NCBI GenBank assembly: GCA_004764695.1
Contig: SMSO01000007.1
Span: forward strand, 699,501 to 763,500
Source of the DNA: Schizochytrium sp. TIO01
Lineage: Eukaryota > Sar > Bigyra > Thraustochytrida > Thraustochytriidae
DNA: 64,000 bases
Reading direction: 5' to 3'
The notes below the pieces were generated by a model that was given only the letters and a program-made list of their open reading frames with translations, did no database searches and was not told the origin of the DNA. A program made the translations under genes and the position numbers. This document shows positions 2,476 to 29,970 of the stretch, one piece after another (the stretch's first letter is position 1; each line of letters begins with the position of its first letter).

Positions 2476-2608
2476 TATTTTGCTTCTTGGCACTGTTTTT
2501 CATGAACTGTTTGTTTACCGCTCCTGAAGTACTTATTGTAACTGCCAAAATATTTTAAAACAGCAATAGGTTATAATATGGGTGGTTACATGTTATTAAC
2601 CAAAAAAA

Positions 2609-3477
2609 TGCAGAACTTGCGTTTCCTATGGTGACGTGGGGCTAAGGTTCAATCGCAGGTTAAAACCTAACTCGCAACTCCAAAAAAATTCTTAATCATA
2701 TCTTTGGATAGGTAGTGCAAAGAATGCCTCTGGGGGCATGGATATCACGATCACCTACATGTTTGCATTTTTGGGATGTCCTTGAACACCTTGAATGTTC
2801 CGAGCTTGTTGTCACATTCATTGCATGGTTTCGAAGTGCAATCATCTCGGGAATAACCAACTTACACCACTGGTAGGGGGTAAGCTTGGCTTTGTGAATG
2901 AGCACTTGGCGGAGGTCAATGAACGACACATCATTCCAGCTGTCTCGATTTGATCCATGTTGTTAACTTGTTGAGGTTTCAAATTTAGGCAATCGTAGTT
3001 TTCACAGAGCCAAAGCACAAGGTAGTCCAGTATGGCGCGCAAGCCAGGTCTTTTGAAATTGATCACTCTACTAATGTCTTTGTAGACGGCGGAGGTGTCT
3101 GGATAGGCACGCTGGAGGTCATCAATCTCTGGCATTTGACATTCTCTTTTTGCTTGGTTGACACTCTGGCGTAGATAATAGTACGGCCAGTGCTGTATTG
3201 CTCGCGGGCGCCGAAATAAACCGCAGTCATAGGGATGCTCAATGTTGTCACTTGCTGAGATGCCAAACTTCTGGTTAAAGTACTTTGCTAGCTTGAATTA
3301 AAGGTTGACTTAACTTATAGTGTTTGGAACTTGGTGGTTCCTTATTCATGCCATTTTATTACCTAATCTCCAATTCTTAACAAAGTACTTTGATAATTTG
3401 AATTGAAGGTTTGATTTATTTGTAGTGTCTAAAGCTTGTTGGTTCCTTGGCCATGCCATTTTCTTACCTAGCCTCCA
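2609..3477 (-). mobile_element. IS607-type (TnpA/Fanzor) element, internally deleted copy A
   Basis: Minus-strand relic related to the longer element at 20649-22712. From 5' to 3' it holds a degraded HTH region, the recombinase catalytic block (TIIYARVSTKQKE, coded around 3150-3190), the segment YKDISRVINFKRPGLRAILD, and then an abrupt join near 3020 to the TnpB/Fanzor segment LWLCENYDCLNL. After that come the last part of the nuclease (KCKHVGDRDIHAPRGI near 2725-2770) and about 90 nt of conserved 3' non-coding sequence ending near 2609. Roughly 1.3 kb of the long copy is missing at the join. Frameshifts and stops interrupt every part, so no protein can be made. The 5' end is a 105-bp tandem duplication (3268-3477). 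It looks like a non-autonomous deletion derivative that has since decayed. Confidence 0.85.
3268..3477. repeat. 105-bp tandem duplication at the 5' end of element copy A
   Basis: Units 3268-3372 and 3373-3477 align without net gaps. Shared blocks include aaagtacttt, ggttcctt and catgccattttnttacct. Read on the minus strand, each unit holds an ATGGCATG start region and the N-terminus of the recombinase. The outer unit reads MAWPRNQQALDTT in frame; the inner one carries a stop after MA. Confidence 0.85.
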
Positions 3478-6045
3478 CTTAATAATTATAATATATCATT
3501 CATATGGAATAGTTACTACCATTTAGTGGTGATAAAAGCTCGAACATTTTCATAGATACAAAATAAAATATACAAGCACTAGTATGTAGGTTGCGATTTT
3601 GTTCAAGCGAGTCAAGTAAACGCTGCGTTCGAGTCTAGAAAATATTATTCCTGGATAAACAAGCGAGGTACTTCGAGCTGTAAACTGTAGGGTGCTATCT
3701 CTGTAGCTTTGGGCACATGTGTAAATTCGACGCATCTGTATCAAGAAATGAATAGAATCTTGGGTTAAAGACACTCTCACTAGCCACATGCTGCTCCTAT
3801 CAATCCTTTTGCTTGGGCAGCAACCCAAGTCGAGAGCAGATCCTAGTTCCTGAAGATGTTTTCATATGTTATTTATCGCTGCCAATTGACATGCCTAGCT
3901 AAATAGAAAAGAAAAAGAAACCGAGAGAATATCGTCTCTATTCTCTCAAGCAGAATTACTATTGCAAGTGGGTCTAGAGGTATTGTATTTGCGAATTGGC
4001 ATAGGTACTAGGTATGGAGATTTTGGCTACGCTATTTCCGAGCTTATCTTAGTCCTAAAACTATTAGATTTGGCAAGATTGTATATCTATACAAAGCCCA
4101 TGGAATACCTTTTCATGATGATTTCTCTATACGGCAAATCCAATTTTTGGTGCCATTTGTTTCTCAGGATGTACAACACAAGTATAAATTTCAAGTGAGC
4201 CACTTTGCTACAATAGACAGTCATCTTTATGGCTCAGTCTTCATTTTTCGCTTGTTGAATTACGCCTACGTGGCATGGGCGTAAATAAAAACAAGAAGTC
4301 AAAGCCGGATAGCTGCTCTTTTAGGTCACGTGGTTGCTCCTGTAATTGCTTTCGACTTATATTCTGGTTAGCTTTCGGCAGTTTAAAATTAGCTCAGTGA
4401 CCAGATTTGGCAAACATACTCTTGATGTGCAAACAATATTTAATCATGCCTTCGGGCACGTTGCAATAAACTAAATAAAATGTTACAACATGAAGATTAC
4501 TCCTAAACGAACTCTGTCACGTGCGATTAGAAGACGCCTATACAATTTGGTCTACTGCTCTTCAGGCTTCAAACAAAACGTCCAAGCTTTGTTTGCAGGC
4601 ATACCTGGGCTTCGCAGGATACGTAGGAACTGTCTGTCATTCACTATCTGCGGCATGAATTATTCTAAGAATTATCTTTAGAGGCCTCTTCCATCGCGGT
4701 ATCCTACAATAGGTAGGTGTAGGCGTTTGAGCAACTGAGGGGCAACTTAAGTCTTGAACTTAAGCAAACAAATTGCAACGAAGACGAGAGAAAGAGAGAT
4801 ACTAGTACCTACATCTAATTTGTCTAAGAGGTTGTACTTGCCCTTAGCTTTACCTCTTTAGTCCAGTTAATACCCTCTGTTGAAGGGAAGTTTTGCAGCC
4901 AAAATTATGAGGAGAAAATATATTCTCAACTCTTTCCCACTCAGGTAGTGTGTCATTTATGTTTTTCATATGGTTTATTTTCTTGAGTTGCAGAAAATAT
5001 TAATTGTCTCTATAGATAAATAAAATTGAATATTTTCTCTGCTGTTTCTATAGTTTACATTAGCTATTTACATAGTGTAGGAAAGAGCTATTGGTTGCAG
5101 TGGACCTCTGGCTCCACTGAGAAAATATTGTCAGTGGTGATGCCTCCACGATATTTGTCAGTGGGCCCAGAGGGAGGGGTCATGCTAAAAATATGACTGC
5201 AAATAATAAAGCTCCACCTACCTACCTACTGGATGCTGATTCTTTCGATTTAGGACTCTACTACAGGTAGATATGCGTCTAGCACATGCTTATCGCTGGG
5301 TAGTACTGGAGTGCTGCTGGTACTTAGTGGCATTACTGCAACTACTTTGCATACTACATACCTAACCCTCCTCTTTTCGTTAGAATGGTTGCATTGCATC
5401 TTTCGGTTATTGCACAATTCGTCCTCAGACGAAAGATCAACTAACCCAACGATTGAGTTTGGATCGTAAATTACACAGCTAAGTCTGTCCTGCTCTTAAG
5501 GTTTAGCAGGTAGCCTTCTGTCCTCAAGAGGCCAGGATCTTGGAATTCACCCGGACATTGCTCCGCGAGAGATTGAAAGCGATAGTTGCAGTAATAGAAG
5601 CGACTAATGCACTGCTAACAGTTGACTAGTTGCAGTGAAACTTTTCAGTAGTAGTGCGGCTAGTAGTCACCCGCAGGGCTGTTACTAGTGATTACGGTAG
5701 GTTGGGTCCTAACAGTAGCTGTCTGCGCCTGTCAGTCAGTTTGCAATATAGCGAAAACAGTAGAGTGGGTAGCAATAGTAATGTACACGCTCTGTTCCTG
5801 CATATATCAAAAATGTAAAGGAGGCTATGAGGGAATGTAAACGAAGGAAAACGAAGAAGGAAAGAAAACATCTAAACAGACAAATCAAATAGAAGACCAA
5901 GAGGTGGCAAAGTGAAAGCTCAAATGTTTCATTTGTCCATCATTCGTAAAGTAACTTGAAGTTGTAGTTTTTTATTCCAAGCTTAACATTTCTTTGTTTC
6001 TTTGTTTCTTTGTTTCATTCATTAGTCGGTTTTGTAATCAATCAT

Positions 6046-18703: not shown

Positions 18704-20648
18704 CGTGACTTGACTTGGATTGGATTAAACGGTCTGCAGTTAACTAAAGTTCACTTCTAGGCCGGTGTTGCTGGTGGAATAGATAGCGTCTGATTTCAGT
18801 CTCTTGGACGTTACTCCCTTGCCCAGAATAAGAAGCAGCGCAAGTAGCGGTTCGTCCGCACCAGCGAACTCTACTCGGAGACTAAGAACGCGGCTCTTAG
18901 GGATTTAAACTTTTAAAAATTCTCAAGTGCAACTCCACTTCTTCGCCCTGCAAGTGCTTGTTTTGCGTCAACTGCACAGGTCACAAAGCTCCTAGTTGCA
19001 CCTTTAGGCGTTGATAGGGTCGACGATGATGGTGTCTGTCCGCACCACTATCAGCTACGAGAGTTCGCTCAGCAAGCTAGATGCGCGGCCTCTGGGACGC
19101 TGCACGTGGTTACTAGATTTCTTAGAGGGAGAGACCTGCTAGAAAAGTACGAGAAGGCAACGACGAAGCCTCCAGGATTGATACCATCCTCACTATCTAT
19201 CTACTAACACCAGCTGACTAGGGCTATCTAGCTGACCCAGTAGGACTCGCTCTGAGAAGAGAAGGCGTCAAAAGCTCATGTTGGCGACATCGACCTCAGT
19301 CAGAATCATTGTTTCATGGTTTCTGCTCTTCCTCGTCATCTCACTACTGATTGGGGGTAAGTGGGCAGTAGGCGCCTCCTTTGTTGAAAAGAAGGGGATC
19401 CTGACTAAAAGGTTTTGCATGCCCCTGCAAAGCTCGGCAAAGCAGGGTGCACACGAGAAATAGGGGGCAGTGTGAAAGGAGATTTTCAGTTATCTCGTGA
19501 AAGAAAGCGTACAAACAACAATGTAGGTATCTTCTATCTGTAGCTGGCCTATCTCTCTCTGCTTAGCTCCATATGGAGAACCTGGAGAGATGATGATGAG
19601 GCGCTTACTTTTATGATGGGCTCTGCAGGTAAGCAAGCAAGCTACCTCCCTCTAGAGCTCGCTCACTCGCATGCCAAACAGAACGGATGTGCTGTCTTGT
19701 TTCTGCTAACTAGGCAGGCTGCTGTTCTTCGAAAAGCTTGAACCACCAGCTAACTGCCTGCCTGCTTATTCGTATCGTGGCGTGCGTGTCGTGTCGTGTC
19801 GTGTCGTGTCATGTCATGTCATGTCAGGCAGCATTCGTGATCTATCTGAACACCATTACAAGTTGTAACTTGTGACTTTCTTGACCGGTAGGAGTAGCAG
19901 TCTAGGAGCCCACCTCAAGCGCACTAATAGTACCTCCTCTAATAAGCATGCCAGCTTTTAATTAAGAAAATAAAGATAAAAACATAAAAAAAATTGTTGT
20001 TTTACAAAACGAGAAAAAGAAAACAAGAAACAGCAAAGTTTTCAGCAAAAGTTGGCTTCGCGCGCGAATGAGCTTCAATGATGTTTCGAGACAGACATTT
20101 TTCATCTGATTTGATGTATGCTTTGTCTGTAAAATGACCAAATATGTACATTTTTGTCAGAATAAGTAGTTGGGTCTATTTAAATAAATACTGTTGTAGT
20201 CAAATTTGCAAGAGCGGCTGAGAAAGTTTGTTTGTTTGTTTGTTTGTTTGTTTGTTTGTTTGTTTGTTTGTTTGTTTGTTTGTTTGTTTGTTTGTTTGTT
20301 TGTTTGTTTGTTTGTTTGTTTGTTTGTTTGTTTGTTTCGGACTTGATCAACCACCAGACCCTGCAACCTCTGCAGGAAAAAAATGAGTCTGTCCTCTTTT
20401 TGGTTCCATGTTTACTTCTCCGGTAAGAGCACAGAGGTCAAATGCCAATTCGATATAGTTTGGCATTTTATTCGGGCTCAACGGTATCAGAAATTAAAAT
20501 TTATATTAGTTGGCCGTCTTAACGTCAATTTACAAGGATGATAGTGTGCGTGACCAAGTTTTGCTGCTGTAGGCCGGACCTTCAAATTTAAAAAAATAAA
20601 AAATTATAAAATTATAAAAGAAAGTGGGTACACTCTTAGATTTTAAAC
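18704..20648. other. intergenic with simple repeats
   Basis: Upstream of the TMEM45-like gene and flanking the transposon's 3' end. It contains a GTGTC/ATGTC pentamer run (19786-19826), an AT-rich stretch (19965-20035) and the long TTTG tract. No convincing gene. Confidence 0.5.
20227..20337. repeat. (TTTG)n microsatellite, about 28 units
   Basis: 111 bases of uninterrupted TTTG units. It yields artefactual ORFs on both strands. Confidence 0.98.
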
Positions 20649-20760
20649 TGCAAAACTTGCATTTCATAGAGGTAGCTAAGACCCCATCACGAGACTAACC
20701 CGCGACTCAATGAAATGATTTTTGTTTCATCATGTCCCCTTGGATAGGTAGCGTAAAAGG
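20649..20760 (-). ncRNA. candidate guide-RNA (omega/fRNA) 3' region of the element
   Basis: Downstream of the nuclease stop (20730-20732) the two element copies stay alignable for about 80-100 nt despite heavy decay elsewhere. Shared blocks are GAGT(C/T)GCG(G/A)GTTAG, CTTAGC and GCAAGTT(T/C)TGCA. The last forms a short inverted repeat right where homology ends. In TnpB and Fanzor systems the guide RNA scaffold overlaps the nuclease 3' end and stops at the transposon end, with the guide read from flanking DNA. This is an inference by position and conservation only; no structure was computed. Confidence 0.35.
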
Positions 20761-22219
20761 ATGCCTCTGGCGGCATGGACATCACGGTCTGCTACATGTT
20801 TGCACTTGGGGTTAGGGCATCGGAAAACCTTGGATGCACCGAGTTTATGGTAGATGGTATTACACTCATTGCATGTTTTTGAAGTGTAGCTCTCTTGGCA
20901 AAGAACAAGCTTGCACCACGGGAACATCTCAGCCTTATGAATGAGAGTCTGGCGGAACCCAAAGTGGCGCCAACGACACATCATTCGAACAGACTTCTTG
21001 GAGACCCGTCACTCCATCTTCCTACTCATCTTGGAGGTTTCGAATTTAGGCAAGAGAATAACACGATAGTTTTCACAAAGCCAAAGCCCGAGCTTGCGGT
21101 GAATCTCATTGGTCTTGTTCTGGATCTTGAGTTGGGCGCGATAGAAAGCGCGCTTCAAGGGGATGTTGAAATTGTCTTTATCACTGGATGCAGTTTTCTT
21201 ATTATCCTCTTGAGCTTTATCAATCCTGCTCTGGATCTTGTCAACGCGGCGACAGAGATAGAATATGGTTCTAAAATCTTTCCCTGTGTTTCATTCAATG
21301 GCGCGGCCATCAGCGTCATACATCGTCTGAAACGAGCGTACACCTGGATCCAGAGCAACGACACTGTGGTACGCCTTGGGGGTGCCTGGTCCACTGGACG
21401 CTTTTTTTCTTCTTGTAAGAAGCAGAAGTAGACATGCCCAAGGCGATTCATTTGCACACGCATTGCGTTCGAAATCTGGTCGGGGAACTTTTCTTTGCGT
21501 ATTCGGAATTCTTTTAGAAAGTTGGAGGTCTTTGATTTCTTCAAATTCCAGGTACGTGCATTCACTTCGAAAATCTGTGATTCATCACGCTTGGTCCGAA
21601 ACTTATAAAAAGATTGCTCATGAACTTTCTTTTGTACAGCGAGTTCTTCGTTTTTGGCTCGTCCCGAGTCAAGAGCCTTGAAGAAATCCAGAATCCGGGA
21701 ATCACGGATAGCCTGTGGGACTTCGAGAACCCATTCAGGAGCATAATTCCTTTCTTTATATCGGACGGCCTTCTTTTCTCCATAGAGGGCACCATGTGTT
21801 TGGGGATTCCCATTTTCGTCTACCAAGACCTGCTTCGTTTTAATATCCTTTTTGAGACACGCTTTTTGATGTAACTTGATGGCTTTCTCCTCACCCTTCG
21901 CCACATCTCGATGAAACGCAACGCCAGTATTGTAGGCTCTTCTAGTGACACCAAACCATTTAAGCAATTGTGTGCGCTCATCTTTAGTAGGGTATACTCT
22001 AACCTTTCTGGCACGGACAAGGTCATATTCTTTCTTGGTGGTCTTGCGCGCCTTCGTGCGAGCTCGCTTCTTCCTCGCTGCGTCGTCGCCGTCTATTTTG
22101 CGCTGCTCGTTTTCTGTGATGCGATGCCACAAATACGGTGATGATTTCGAGGAGGTCTTTGGTGAAGGTGTCTGAGTCTTCGGCATGTGCATCTTGGCCG
22201 TGTACCACGAGTTTGACAT
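20730..22219 (-). pseudogene. TnpB/Fanzor-type RNA-guided nuclease, broken
   Basis: A start candidate is ATG 22219 (MSNSWYTAKMHM), inside the recombinase gene in another frame. The N-terminal OrfB/TnpB module reads ARKVRVYPTKDERTQLLKWF, then TRRAYNTGVAF. The linker QAPPRRTT leads to RuvC-I, where ALDPGVRSF (Asp coded at 21348-21350) lies in a shifted frame. RuvC-II is LLPKFETSKM (Glu). The zinc finger has CNEC and CPNPKC, and RuvC-III is DRDVHAARGI. So all three catalytic acidic residues and four zinc cysteines remain. Breaks: one frameshift between about 21350 and 21380, and in-frame TGA at 21291-21293 and 21009-21011. Both stops look like single transitions. By association with an IS607 recombinase in a eukaryote it would be a Fanzor2-type protein. 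It is about 490 codons overall. Confidence 0.87.
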
Positions 22220-22712
22220 TTTTCTTTCAAAAAGGTGTTCCAAGAGGTCGACTGCGATTTGCGCAAGTCGGTCGCGGTGCATGACCACAACTTGGCCGAT
22301 TCCGCCGCGGTCACAGGCGTCCAGTAGGGAGCACAGGCCTTGACATTTGAAGCTGACCCCGCTGCCGATGTCTTTGCAGACGGCTGAAGCATCTGAGTAG
22401 GTGCGCTGGAGATCGTCAACCTGGCGTTCTAGGTCCTCCTTTTGCTTGGTCGAGGACACTCTGGCATAGATAACAGTACGTCCAGAGCTGCGTTGCTCGC
22501 GGCCGGTGGAACCGCAATCAAAGATGCGCTCGACATCGTCGCTGGCGTAGATACGCTTGCCTCCGGGGAAGCGCGCGCAGCGCACGCGTCCGCCATCGGC
22601 CCAGCCCCGAAGGGCGCTTGCTGAGACCCCAAACTTCTGGTGAAAGAACTTTGCTGGTTTGTATTGGAGGTTTGCTCCACTTGCAGCGTTTGGAGCTTGC
22701 CGGTTCCTCGGA
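22023..22712 (-). pseudogene. tnpA: IS607-type serine recombinase (TnpA), frameshifted
   Basis: HTH_MerR-like N-terminus: KPAKFFHQKFGVSASALRGW, then FPGGKRIYASDDVERIF, in the order expected for IS607 TnpA. The resolvase catalytic domain follows: TVIYARVSSTKQKEDLERQ, with the nucleophilic serine in the ARVSS motif, then DIGSGVSFKCQGLCSLLDA and VVVMHRDRLAQ. The ATG at 22712 is out of frame by one base relative to the HTH (copy A has the start in frame). At the five-base T run 22219-22223 (an A run on the coding strand) the frame shifts. The domain's last part, VHGQDAHAEDSDTFTKDLL through VFVASHHRKRAAQN, continues in another frame and ends at 22023. At least two frameshifts, so non-functional as written. 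Confidence 0.85.
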
Positions 22713-23121
22713 AATAAGCATAATATATGATTAATATGAAACAAACACTACGAAATATAAGTTATCGAACTTTTCACGGTTTTTGTTATACTGTCTGTAG
22801 TTCTGCAATTGCGGAGTTCTCACCCACGCGAACTAGTTGCTAGAGTATCGATCTTCAGCTACTAGTGATAGCGTCATAAGGTATAGCTATACATGACATC
22901 TTTCTGAGCTTGCTTGCAAATGTGTAGTTGCTTCAAGAAAAAGTCCCGGCAAAGTCCGTCAGGGACGGAAAAGCTTGCGATAAGATGAAGCAAAGCTGCA
23001 TCGCGTGAGGCCCAAACTTAAGGTGTGAACAGACCAGGAGGGCCAGCAAGGCTAGAGCCACTGCTTCTGTTTAACATTCTCTGATAAAACAAAGTAACGC
23101 GAAAAGATATTCTCTGCTAAG
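22713..23121. other. intergenic
   Basis: Short region between the transposon 5' end and the hydrolase gene; the presumed promoter and 5' UTR of the latter. No further feature seen. Confidence 0.45.
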
Positions 23122-24549: not shown

Positions 24550-26752
24550 CGAAGTTTATTTTCTTTTGCAACAAGGCATGACTTTAGCACCTTTAACTTG
24601 AAGTCAATCTTTCAATCGCAACGAGGTTACCAAGGCGGTACCGTTTGTCCAGGGTCTCATGTTCCGGAAACACTTTCACACAAAATCAAATCAGAGTTTG
24701 TGCGTTCCATCATTCGTGAGCGAATTTGTTGGTAACGATACCCCTATATCCTAGACTTATGCAGAAGGGTGATGCTTGCACTTTGAGGTATTTTGGAGTA
24801 TCTTTTAGAGAATGCCAAAACCTACGCTGTAGTTTAAAAGTTGCTGCACGTGGAAGTGTACAAGGATCGATACCAGCGTCAAATCTGGTTAATTTGTGTT
24901 TCGGCAGCTCCCTAAACAAGAAAACATTCACCATAAACATGCATTTTTGCCCCCAAGCTAGAATCTTTTCTTTGCCAGGCGCTATTCGATCTTACATAAG
25001 CTCCAAGGAATACAACACGCCAATATAGCTGATTGGGGTGCAACGCCAAATTCCCTTTTGACTCCGAAATATATCCTATAAGTATATGCAACTGAGTCAT
25101 TCTCAACAGCAAGGAGGCTAGTGTTTGAGTTTGAAAATAACCTCATGGATTGACTGTCTGTAAAGGGTCAATCTGCTGCACGATGGAGAATATTTAGGAG
25201 GTATGCTAAAGAAAAAGTTTCATAACATGTTAAGAACCAATACTTTTTCTATATAGGGTCAACACGAACATCTCTGTTCCTACCAGGTTATAGAATCCAC
25301 GTTCTATCCAACGTCTTCTCTGACTACACCTAAGATAGCAGAATTATATGTTGTGAAATTTCAAAATGGAAAATTTATTCCTCTTTCTTCTTTCCTCCAA
25401 GTTTAAGGCCACTCCGTTTTCTTAATGCATTCATGCAATAGGAGAGATAAGTAAAATGATGACTTTGATTGTATTCCATTATAGAGGGGCTTATTCATGC
25501 CCCACAGTTGCTGTTTTGAACTATTTGCTGATATTCACTGCATTATCGTTCTGCATCATCTTCCCTAACTGGCCAGAAATGGTTTATTGGAGTACCAAGT
25601 TCAAAGCAAAAACCGGCCAAGGTTTACCTACGGGTAGATGCGTCCTGAACTTTGTCCCAAACTCTACAGTGCATGGTAACCATACAACAATCCATGTAGA
25701 AAATCCCTCGCGAAATAAAAAATAGGTTTGCCATTCTATTTCGATGCAACTATGGTCTGTGAACTTGTATGAGGGGCGTAGGTTCATTGGCTCGTACTCT
25801 CGCTCTCCGCTTGAAAAACGTGCCTAGGTTGTATAATACTAGTCGCTTCTACCAGATTAACTAAAAGTTGTTTATGTCATTGCGAAAACACCTATGACGC
25901 AATGAGACTATCTCATCAACTTGCACTGAGGCTACCTGAAGTGACGCAATGCCTTCTTTTCAAGGGGCCGCTGTTTGAAGTTTGCCCTCATGCCTCTGCA
26001 CAGAAAGGATCGTATCAGCCTCAGCTATGACGTGGCGACCAATAAATCAGTTAATCAGAAAACTACACTCGTAGAGATCCAAGTGATCCTGGATACCATA
26101 CACTAAGAAATGTTCGATTCGGTTCAAACTTGCGATTGAAAAATAATACTACGGGAATGCGACGCTCGCTCTGGTAGTAAAAGCCAGCTTCCAAGCCAAA
26201 GGGCTTATGACTCTGTAGCGCTTTGGTAAAGATGATAGGTCTCACTTTGGAAATATAAATAATGTAATAAAGTAACTAACCAGCGGTTTGTTGTCACAAT
26301 CGACTTAAAAACTATTTCATATAATACTTGCTCAGGCTTTCAATCTTGACTTGTCATAGTAGTCAGCTCTTGGTCTATAACACCATGTGCAAATAGCAGG
26401 GGAGCAGCGCGGGAGTAGCCTGCAATAACAAAGGGCAAAGCTAGAGCAGTTGAATTGATTTTTTCTTATGAACGTGCTCCGCGCTCAGATTTTACTAATA
26501 TATATAATATTATTTTTTTAATCTAAGAAAGAAAGCATAATAGGCAATAAGAACATAGCTAGTAGCCATAACATCTGGCACTTCCAAAGTTGGCATGCAA
26601 GTAGCTTGCCAAAGAGTGAGCAAATCCAAAACATTAATCGTGGGTTCTGAAAGTAAGTCCAAGAGCCTGCGCACTCAGGAGACCATATCGAGGCTTGGCG
26701 TGGCCTGACAACTTTGCTTGTAAGGGAAGAACTGTATCGAGGGCGACCAACG
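24550..26752. other. intergenic, no gene seen
   Basis: About 2.2 kb of AT-rich sequence. Short ORFs near 24726, 25456 and 26063 show no family features. An A/T run lies near 26500-26530. Confidence 0.45.
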
Positions 26753-27733
26753 ATGGAGGCAACGGCAGCAACAGACCTGTCTAAGTCGGTTGGAGCAAGT
26801 GAAAGCTCTATTGAGACTAGTACAGTCAGTAGCTCTCACGATGTAGCGAAGATTGAAGGGGCTAACACAGGCGCACATCCGCCTACAGCGCCGGCTTTTG
26901 CTCCGAACCCAACATCAAAACCTAACAGTCACATCTCGAATAACGTGATCAATCACGAAATACTCACTGCCGAAGTCCAGTCGTCGGTGAAAGCCCTCAA
27001 AGAGGCATGCGCTAAGCACGATCTGAAACTTCGAAATGATTTTGAGGCTGTGCGTCTAGTGGTCGCGTGCGAAGGCAACCAGGATAAGATGCTTAAGCGG
27101 ATTAAACATATGCGGGAATTTGAGGTTGAAAACAAATTCGACGAGATTTCGCCAGAAGAGGCGTGGGATTACTACCACAAGAACCTCCCCAAGGCAGCCC
27201 TAACTTTCATCGGACATGACCGTCAAGAACGCCCTGTCCTGTATATCAATGTAGCTGGGTTTTACCCCAGTAAGATCTATAAGGACCCGAAGCTCTTGCG
27301 CTGCCTTTTTCGTTTGTGTGTTTTCGAGCTCCAAGCTTCTGCGACAAATCTCGATGAAGCTAATAAGGGTTTCATCATGCTTATGAATTGTAAAGGTATG
27401 GCCATGAAAAACTTCTCCCTGAAGCTTGAGCATGAGCTCTCATGGTTATATCAAAATGGCTATCCGATCCGCCTCTGTCAGATTATCTTCTTTAACGCAA
27501 ATGCCATCACTCGTGTGGTGATCAAAGCGTGTAAGGTTTTTCTTACACGCAAAATGCAGGAAAGAATCGTTATTGTGAATGGCAATAAGGAGATTCAGGA
27601 GCTTGTCTCAACCGAAAACCTACCCAAAGACGATGACCTTGGATCTCTGTCAACTGCGCAATCTAGGGAGATTGCACTCAAGCGTGTAGGAGAATTGTAT
27701 GCATTCGAATCCCAGTTTTCTCTCGGACTATAG
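26753..27733 (+). CDS. CRAL-TRIO (SEC14-like) lipid-transfer protein, paralogue 1
   Basis: 326 residues from ATG 26753 (MEATAATDLSKS); the frame is open upstream without an ATG. Residues 1-75 are Ser/Thr/Ala-rich and disordered. Then comes a helical N-lobe (LRNDFEAVRLVVACEGNQD, the DxxxRFLRAR-like position) with MLKRIKHMREFE. From about residue 145 follows the SEC14 lipid-binding domain: FIGHDRQERPVLYINVAGF, KGFIMLMNCKGMAMKNFS, YPIRLCQIIFFNANAIT and KACKVFLTRKMQERIVIVN. The last matches the family's hinge, where 'YPER......N.P..F...W...KPFL...T..KI' is typical. These proteins carry phosphoinositides or other lipids between membranes. Its closest relative is the next gene at 29029, clearly from tandem duplication. 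Confidence 0.85.
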   Translation: MEATAATDLSKSVGASESSIETSTVSSSHDVAKIEGANTGAHPPTAPAFAPNPTSKPNSHISNNVINHEILTAEVQSSVKALKEACAKHDLKLRNDFEAVRLVVACEGNQDKMLKRIKHMREFEVENKFDEISPEEAWDYYHKNLPKAALTFIGHDRQERPVLYINVAGFYPSKIYKDPKLLRCLFRLCVFELQASATNLDEANKGFIMLMNCKGMAMKNFSLKLEHELSWLYQNGYPIRLCQIIFFNANAITRVVIKACKVFLTRKMQERIVIVNGNKEIQELVSTENLPKDDDLGSLSTAQSREIALKRVGELYAFESQFSLGL

Positions 27734-29028: not shown

Positions 29029-29970
29029 ATGCACTCGTCAAGCTCAAGCCAAGACAGTAAAGCTACGACAGATATCAAGGACTTAGACATTACGACTGAA
29101 AGTAATGGCGATGGAAAGGCTAGCGGGCATTTGACCACTCAGGCAAATATTCCTGAAAACATAGTCAAGTCTGCCTTGGAGCTGAAGGAGATCTGCAAAA
29201 AAGAGAATCTTGCTCTTCGCAACGATTTCGAAGCTTTACGCCTGGCCACTGCTTGTCGTGGCGACTTTGGCAAGATGAAGAAACGCATTATAAATTTGCG
29301 AGAATTCGAAGCGCACCACAAGCTGGAAGAGCTTTCTCCTGAGGAGACATGGGACTACTACCACAACGAGTTACCAGGAGGATTCATGTCTTTCATTGGA
29401 AAAGACCGTTCAGGTAGAGCAGTTATGTACGCTGACACCGCAAACTTCTACCCTTCAAAAATATTCAAGGATGAAAAGCTGAAGCGTGTTATGTTTCGTC
29501 AGTTCTCACTGCTTATGCAGGCCTCAGCAACACACCCTGGAGAGGTAGACCAAGGGTTCATCATTGTTATGAATTGCAAAGGCATGGCCATGAAAAATGT
29601 TTCAATTACGCTTCAGCAAGAAGTTGCCTGGCTTCTACAAAGCGGCTATCCCATCCGTTTGTGTCAGGTAGTATTCTTTAACGCCAATAGTATCACCCGG
29701 TGGACACTCAAGGCTTGCAAGGTTTTCTTGACAAGGAAGATGCAAGATCGCATTGCAATCATTAACGGAACTGAAGCAATCCAAGAACTTATTTCGGCAG
29801 AAAGTCTCCCTGAAAGTCAGCAACTCGGGACACAGCCGACTGCTCAAGTACGCACGACCCACCTGGAGCGCGTTAAAGCTTTTTACGATTTTGAACCCAC
29901 ATTTACCTTGCACATTTACCTTGCCCAAGTCATCTGCGGCCTAGTACTCAATTTACTACAATTATTATGA
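29029..29970 (+). CDS. CRAL-TRIO (SEC14-like) lipid-transfer protein, paralogue 2
   Basis: 313 residues from ATG 29029 (MHSSSSSQDSKATTD). The same architecture as its neighbour at 26753: a short Ser-rich leader, then LRNDFEALRLATACRGDFG and MKKRIINLREFEAH, then FIGKDRSGRAVMYADTANF, QGFIIVMNCKGMAMKNVS, YPIRLCQVVFFNANSIT and KACKVFLTRKMQDRIAIIN. Whole blocks (NCKGMAMKN, KACKVFLTRKMQ) are identical between the two. The N-terminal leader is shorter. The C-terminus is longer and ends in a hydrophobic stretch (LHIYLAQVICGLVLNLLQLL) absent from paralogue 1. That could be a tail anchor or simply read-through past the ancestral stop. The role is presumably transfer or sensing of a lipid ligand. Confidence 0.85.
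   Translation: MHSSSSSQDSKATTDIKDLDITTESNGDGKASGHLTTQANIPENIVKSALELKEICKKENLALRNDFEALRLATACRGDFGKMKKRIINLREFEAHHKLEELSPEETWDYYHNELPGGFMSFIGKDRSGRAVMYADTANFYPSKIFKDEKLKRVMFRQFSLLMQASATHPGEVDQGFIIVMNCKGMAMKNVSITLQQEVAWLLQSGYPIRLCQVVFFNANSITRWTLKACKVFLTRKMQDRIAIINGTEAIQELISAESLPESQQLGTQPTAQVRTTHLERVKAFYDFEPTFTLHIYLAQVICGLVLNLLQLL

Follow-up and report, generated by a model that had tools for sequence, protein, structure and literature searches.

Probable TnpA/Fanzor2 homing mechanism of a recently active IS607-type transposon present as a dead copy in a eukaryotic nuclear genome

The window, by which we mean the whole stretch of 64,000 nt that was analysed (C6:699501-763500, in a genome of 64.06 Mb on 37 contigs), contains on its minus strand what is by its sequence an IS607-type element, with TnpA and Fanzor2/TnpB genes overlapping in different frames (Table 1). 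The extent of 20649-22712 given by the sequence-only reading was not borne out, as the alignment of the ends of 19 copies placed the element at 20633-22792, with a length of 2.16 kb (2158 bp plus one AG). The motifs named in that reading (ARVSS, DPG, LLPKFE, a four-cysteine zinc finger and RDVHA) were all located on the minus strand, with ARVSS at 22465-22451, LDPGV at 21353-21339, LLPKFE at 21056-21039 and RDVHA at 20786-20772. We searched eight separate window frames against Pfam and two of them matched; the six others were short or lay out of frame. Matches of the 530-aa frame were Resolvase (PF00239, E 4.8e-12) and HTH_OrfB (PF12323, E 2.7e-7), and that of the last frame was the TNB domain (PF07282, Table 1); as sequence matches both frames are far beyond chance. 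A single open frame (21155-22747, minus strand) holds both a TnpA piece and the N-terminal part of Fanzor2, whose start is likely at 22219 and whose sequence exits this frame near 21380. The window copy is dead and, as had been claimed, broken. Both genes are damaged: tnpA has lost the region of its start and its frame is interrupted, and the nuclease, which extends from about 22219 to 20730, carries a single frame break (near 21380) plus two early stops. No Rfam match was found anywhere in the window at gathering scores. A long (GTTT)n tract lies at 20226-20337, about 300 bp past the right end of the element.

Table 1. Positions of the element, its parts and a deleted relative in the window.
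Feature	Position	Strand	Evidence
Whole element, AG core at each end	20633..22792	-	End alignment, 19 copies
Right-end core dinucleotide AG	20633..20634	-	CTA[A/G]GAG at 18/18 right ends
Left-end core dinucleotide AG, context CAG	22791..22792	-	CAG in 14/18 left ends, by eye
TnpA (IS607 serine recombinase), residues 4-168 without the start region	22217..22711	-	Own-genome protein search; Pfam Resolvase
TnpA C-terminus, residues 164-232, other frame	22026..22232	-	Own-genome protein search; ORF 22023-22226
Fanzor2 N-terminal part with HTH_OrfB	21380..22219	-	Frame analysis, Pfam
Frame with RuvC-I DPG; Fanzor sequence from ~21380 downward; early stop at end	21291..21581	-	
Fanzor2 segment with LLPKFE, usual glutamate position replaced; early stop at end	21009..21290	-	
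Fanzor2 segment with alternative glutamate, C4 zinc finger and RuvC-III DRD; TNB domain	20730..21008	-	PF07282 E 7.6e-14
Predicted guide-RNA (omega RNA) scaffold	20633..20763	-	Covariance model 95.2 bits; pair counts; swap test
Old internally deleted relative (family B)	2585..3550 (left end approximate, by eye)	-	Model match 2585-2726, 33.4 bits, E 3e-7

The recombinase and the nuclease were further characterized using profile and structure searches. TnpA of the sister copy L009 scored 144.9 bits against the NCBIfam IS607 model NF033518 (cut-off 110), with residues 27-210 aligned to positions 4-187 of the 187 in the profile, which upholds the assignment to the IS607 type with a serine recombinase. 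Its relatives with solved structures were the TnpA proteins of ISC1926 and ISC1904 (E about 1e-18), which share the serine recombinase catalytic domain. For the nuclease, the Fanzor fingerprint is DPG together with an alternative glutamate placed shortly ahead of the C4 zinc finger, as described in PMC10711439. Both marks were present: the RuvC-I motif DPG of Fanzor2, and a glutamate about six residues ahead of the zinc finger (in CQESYTSKTC), judged by eye in an alignment with four other TnpBs. The Fanzor/TnpB assignment of Fanzor2 type was therefore retained. In the same alignment the usual glutamate position holds P, so that LLPKFE did not stand as the catalytic motif. The nuclease scored 94.4 bits against the NCBIfam TnpB model NF040570, under its cut-off of 100, and its closest solved match was mimivirus L79 (E 1.1e-17). 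From this sequence, Fanzor2 would be expected to cut DNA in an RNA-guided, TAM-dependent manner. The best matches were IS607 TnpA and TnpB/Fanzor, and not an unrelated recombinase or zinc-finger protein.

Six of seven window proteins passed the curated Pfam cut-off. The WD40 protein had RACK1 as its solved matches (best E 2e-141), and the other matches included Glu/Gln-tRNA synthetase, BTB_SANBR, CRAL-TRIO and S26 signal peptidase. Two adjoining similar open frames (26714-27733 and 29029-29970, plus strand) are apparently a tandem duplication by eye; the first of the pair is the CRAL-TRIO protein. Elsewhere in the genome (C4:608161-617209) we found a PUFA synthase of PfaA type that contains repeated segments; its 2172-aa frame scored 1157 bits against a cut-off of 1010. 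Among eukaryotes, such a synthase is a thraustochytrid mark, which suggests that the host may be a thraustochytrid. We regard it as very improbable that the locus stems from contaminating bacterial or viral DNA or belongs to a giant virus that has integrated. Giant viruses do carry Fanzor2 elements, as reported in PMC3627910, and the closest solved relative is a mimivirus protein, but at least 21 long copies lie on 11 contigs with given sizes of 1.1 to 9.0 Mb, the window genes tested include eukaryotic RACK1, Glu/Gln-tRNA synthetase, BTB and CRAL-TRIO proteins, and three scans of viral contigs, made with few peptide patterns and of limited reach, gave no confirmed relative. The normal nuclear surroundings described in the sequence-only reading were thus found again, and with the long copies spread over one eukaryotic genome contamination is refuted for the window. 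The family may have entered by a viral route long ago.

A 2.2-kb query gave at least 62 matches in the genome (40 of 199 candidates scored). The long copies (family A; at least 1.76 kb and at least 81% identical) were analysed at 19 loci, namely the window copy, L009-L024, L026 and L036, with C7:513506 and C34:70713 represented by 3' ends only. The Fanzor frame was open, with DPG and RDVHA, in 14 of the 19 copies and broken in five; TnpA was whole (232 aa) in nine, and both genes were whole in eight, so that the intact copies suspected elsewhere in the genome exist. The closest pairs of long copies were 99.5-99.7% identical and lay at unrelated sites. When 1.2-kb flanks were compared, 16 of 19 copies matched no other compared locus; the flanks of the remaining three match elsewhere because old family B copies lie there. 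L016, L022 and L024 each have an old family B copy no more than about 500 bp away, in two cases in head-to-head orientation. Near-identical copies at unrelated sites, with mostly unmatched flanks, show that the family moved recently, in line with the recent activity suggested earlier.

We measured coding constraint between pairs of copies. Fanzor dN/dS was below 1 in all 14 pairs tried (0.19-0.77) and at most 0.35 in nine of them, and TnpA dN/dS was below 1 in all 13 pairs giving a value; the pairs share members, including the broken window and L026 copies, and the values are to be read with caution because the copies recombine. Variable sites in Fanzor were distributed 40/38/72 over the three codon positions (15 copies). 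The frame is open for 661 aa, and a Fanzor start far upstream inside tnpA was considered and rejected; a start near MSKSW is preferred because the third-position signal is absent upstream of it (10/14/11). Splicing of a leader intron to give the Fanzor message, from an AGGTAAG just before the TnpA ATG, was not supported, because the GT is lost in seven of the 16 copies showing the site (L013-L017, L019 and L036), among them L014 and L016, which have both frames whole.

These counts bear on a reading in which TnpA alone explains the spread, with Fanzor carried along or only regulating TnpA and no cutting of the donor site. The five of 19 copies with a broken Fanzor frame agree with it. However, Fanzor is open in more copies than TnpA is whole (14 against 9 of 19), its dN/dS is below 1, and the 3' end carries the covarying RNA described below; we consider this reading quite unlikely. 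The constraint on the Fanzor frame could also be expected of a nuclease gene adopted by the host, but the many dispersed copies with element ends, many of them broken, speak against such domestication. Constraint is explained by transposition with no need of domestication, which we hold to be extremely improbable.

The ends of the long copies were uniform on the right side. All 18 right ends terminated in CTA[A/G]GAG, followed by A (11 copies) or T (7 copies); L036 was cut off before the end. On the left side, read by eye, CAG stood 4-9 nt before the A-rich start in 14 of 18 copies, where the chance of a CAG per 8-nt window is 8.4%, and was absent in L009, L016, L020 and L026. The inferred target preference is C-AG-[A/T]. 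Terminal inverted repeats were not found: L009 contains six inverted pairs of at least 11 nt, none of them linking the two ends. L022 is nested in the left end of a family B element, and its flanks, by eye, rejoin around a single AG, in a comparison where there are several differences from other B copies. Searches with the joined flanks of L010, of L015 and of the window copy gave no empty paralogous site. In the 13 copies with a left CAG and a right end, the left-end bases after AG agreed with the copy's own right flank above permutations (sum 21, mean 7.7, p 0.002; p 0.004 when capped at three bases per copy). This agreement came mainly from L010, L012, L013 and L019, with stretches of 2, 3 or, in L019, 11 nt. 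The AG at 18/18 right ends, the CAG at 14/18 left ends and the one nested case may reflect insertion at a single AG without further duplication, but some copies have extra shared bases and no clean empty site was found.

Internally deleted relatives (family B) number dozens or more in this genome. They measure about 0.8-1.0 kb, and 19 of the 20 loci L046-L065 have one junction in common, at which about 470-525 of the L009 query is joined to about 1710-1745. A family B query gave at least 42 matches (40 of 233 candidates scored), which include fragments of older long copies; most matches were 68-76% identical to the query. Among 21 B copies the pairwise identity was 66-75%. TnpA remnants of all kinds gave at least 156 matches (150 of 241 candidates scored), and the family B copy in the window retains a TnpA remnant at C6:702525-702755 by protein search. 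Selection keeping the guide-RNA region in B elements was considered and set aside: column identity along the 21 B copies was mostly 0.65-0.83, and this flat conservation had no peak confined to the RNA region.

The 3' end of the element was folded and compared among copies. Folding gave z scores of -4.2 for the terminal 145 nt of L009 and -5.2 for the terminal 148 nt of L013, and 197 nt of the 3' end of the family B copy L034 was unremarkable (z -1.8, with 10 of 200 shuffles as good). Within 12 family A copies, 39-43 of the 43 pairs hold. A covariance model found 58 places in 54 sequences, which had been picked for carrying copies, and matched both the window copy and the window family B copy (Table 1). 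In the model-based alignment, which is fitted to structure and leans towards it, 88.6% of cells pair against 83.2% in shuffles (0/500 as high), and changes on both sides occurred in 34 of 43 pairs against a mean of 18 in shuffles (0/500 as high). In an independent arm swap test on stem 1, own arms formed 7.85 of 11 pairs and swapped arms 7.15, with 9 of 5000 permutations as good; this test covered 44 of the 58 ends with arms anchored from outside and 33 distinct arm pairs, with a few anchors plainly misplaced. By family, 29 of 5000 permutations were as good for B alone and 638 of 5000, which is not significant, for A alone. An unguided alignment of both families (RNAalifold) gave almost no consensus structure (3 pairs). 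The 3' ~146 nt of the element are a predicted guide-RNA scaffold with covarying pairs, and the predicted guide would start at or just past 20633 and run to lower coordinates.

In the homing model, a TnpB-type nuclease cuts the vacated site and repair restores the element. The covarying RNA at the 3' end makes a guide RNA with nuclease homing the best mechanism, and we consider it very probable that the window holds a dead copy of a recently active eukaryotic nuclear IS607-type transposon that spreads by TnpA and Fanzor2 homing. TnpA is a serine recombinase whose DNA-binding domain is N-terminal; it would join the two ends at AG into a circle, and the circle would insert at a matching AG, preferably in C-AG-[A/T]. 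Fanzor2, made from the overlapping gene, would bind a structured RNA transcribed from the last ~146 nt and extending into the right flank; that flank would be used as the guide, and the predicted TAM is the left flank with its terminal CAG. Fanzor2 with its RNA would then cut the emptied donor site, and repair from a copy still holding the element would restore it.

Family A copies from different contigs have mosaic sequences, made up of segments of one another. Across 15 long copies (136 informative sites) PHI was 0.223 against 0.344 in permutations, with 0/1000 as low, and blocks of 250 columns matched different sisters at 100% identity; misassembly of repeats could produce part of this signal. 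The same 295-bp repeat (99.7-100%) was found inside tnpA of five family A copies (L013, L015, L017, L036 and C13:5455966-5456260) and at no fewer than 35 other genomic places (41 matches; 40 of 130 candidates scored). Some of its places are near contig ends (C31:2582 and C7:1137983). Of the four retrieved copies with the repeat in tnpA, the Fanzor frame is still open in three, and the other is truncated at its 3' end; the fifth (C13:5455775) is a fragment. Such TnpA-dead copies would have been either moved by TnpA supplied from elsewhere or copied by repair. The PHI signal, the copies with a repeat-interrupted tnpA at five sites and the agreement between left and right flanks could together point to a variant in which breaks made by the nuclease drive copying between elements, so that Fanzor-directed homologous repair would shape and spread the family together with TnpA. 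We put this forward as a tentative possibility of low probability, and prefer homing at the vacated donor site.

Relatives of both proteins were searched for in phage and plasmid sequences by tblastn. For the nuclease, the best of the 15 phage records listed out of 34 was Microcoleus phage My-WqHQDG (OR578706; 33% identity, E 6e-51), followed among the matches listed by a Vibrio phage (25%, E 7e-21), and the best among 20 of 458 plasmid records was Trichormus variabilis NC_007410 (29%, E 4e-33). For TnpA, the lowest E among the 15 of 203 plasmid records listed belonged to Nostoc (2e-24), and among the 15 of 74 phage records listed to Nodularia phages (2e-22). Single-sequence and alignment scans of viral contigs and prokaryotic genomes gave no confirmed relative, whereas tblastn of phages and plasmids found some. 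DPG and the alternative glutamate of the protist protein are both present in the proteins from the Microcoleus phage and from Trichormus; the Vibrio phage protein has DVG, and the Thermus protein has DLG without the alternative glutamate. In the phage and plasmid sets searched, the closest proteins are thus of the cyanophage/cyanobacterial 'pro-Fanzor' type. They differ from the protist protein in being prokaryotic and about 30% identical to it, and its lysine/arginine-rich stretch before the HTH has, by eye, no counterpart in the Microcoleus phage protein. The sequence points to a cyanobacterial-type source, and this fits the origin of Fanzor from pro-Fanzors that was proposed from cyanobacterial IS607 TnpBs in PMC10711439. 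Mimivirus L79 (PDB 9b0l) matched over 201 residues across RuvC and the zinc finger, with 67 bits against 192 bits, by another program, for the cyanophage protein.

Fanzor2 in an IS607 element of a eukaryote is already known, having been in print since 2013 (PMC3627910), and the family here is a further case. The elements ACa-1, ACa-2, CRv-1 and ISvMimi described there have the same IS607-like recombinase and Fanzor2, lack of terminal inverted repeats, C4 zinc finger and RD motif. The present family differs from them in its host, in having eight of 19 copies whole in both genes, and in the large internally deleted family in the same genome. The table of PMC3627910 places Fanzor2 in a choanoflagellate, fungi, Acanthamoeba, three Phytophthora and giant viruses, some of which also have IS607 recombinases, and contains no labyrinthulomycete. 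The core dinucleotide of IS607 is GG as given in PMC4058570, in contrast to AG here. The CAG predicted here is like in kind to TAG and CCG, which PMC10432273 gives as the TAMs of two Fz2 proteins. The most abundant repeat of a green alga, according to PMC12636532, likewise encodes a Fanzor. A literature search for Fanzor together with thraustochytrids found no paper, and supplementary tables may list such elements.

One genome therefore holds whole genes, near-identical copies, a predicted TAM and scaffold, TnpA-dead copies and a deleted family, and with these the homing model could be tested in a native setting. If the host is a thraustochytrid, labyrinthulomycetes would join the hosts of two-gene IS607-Fanzor2 elements. 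Given apparently intact and recently moved copies, the natural role of the putative cutter could be tested in its own host.
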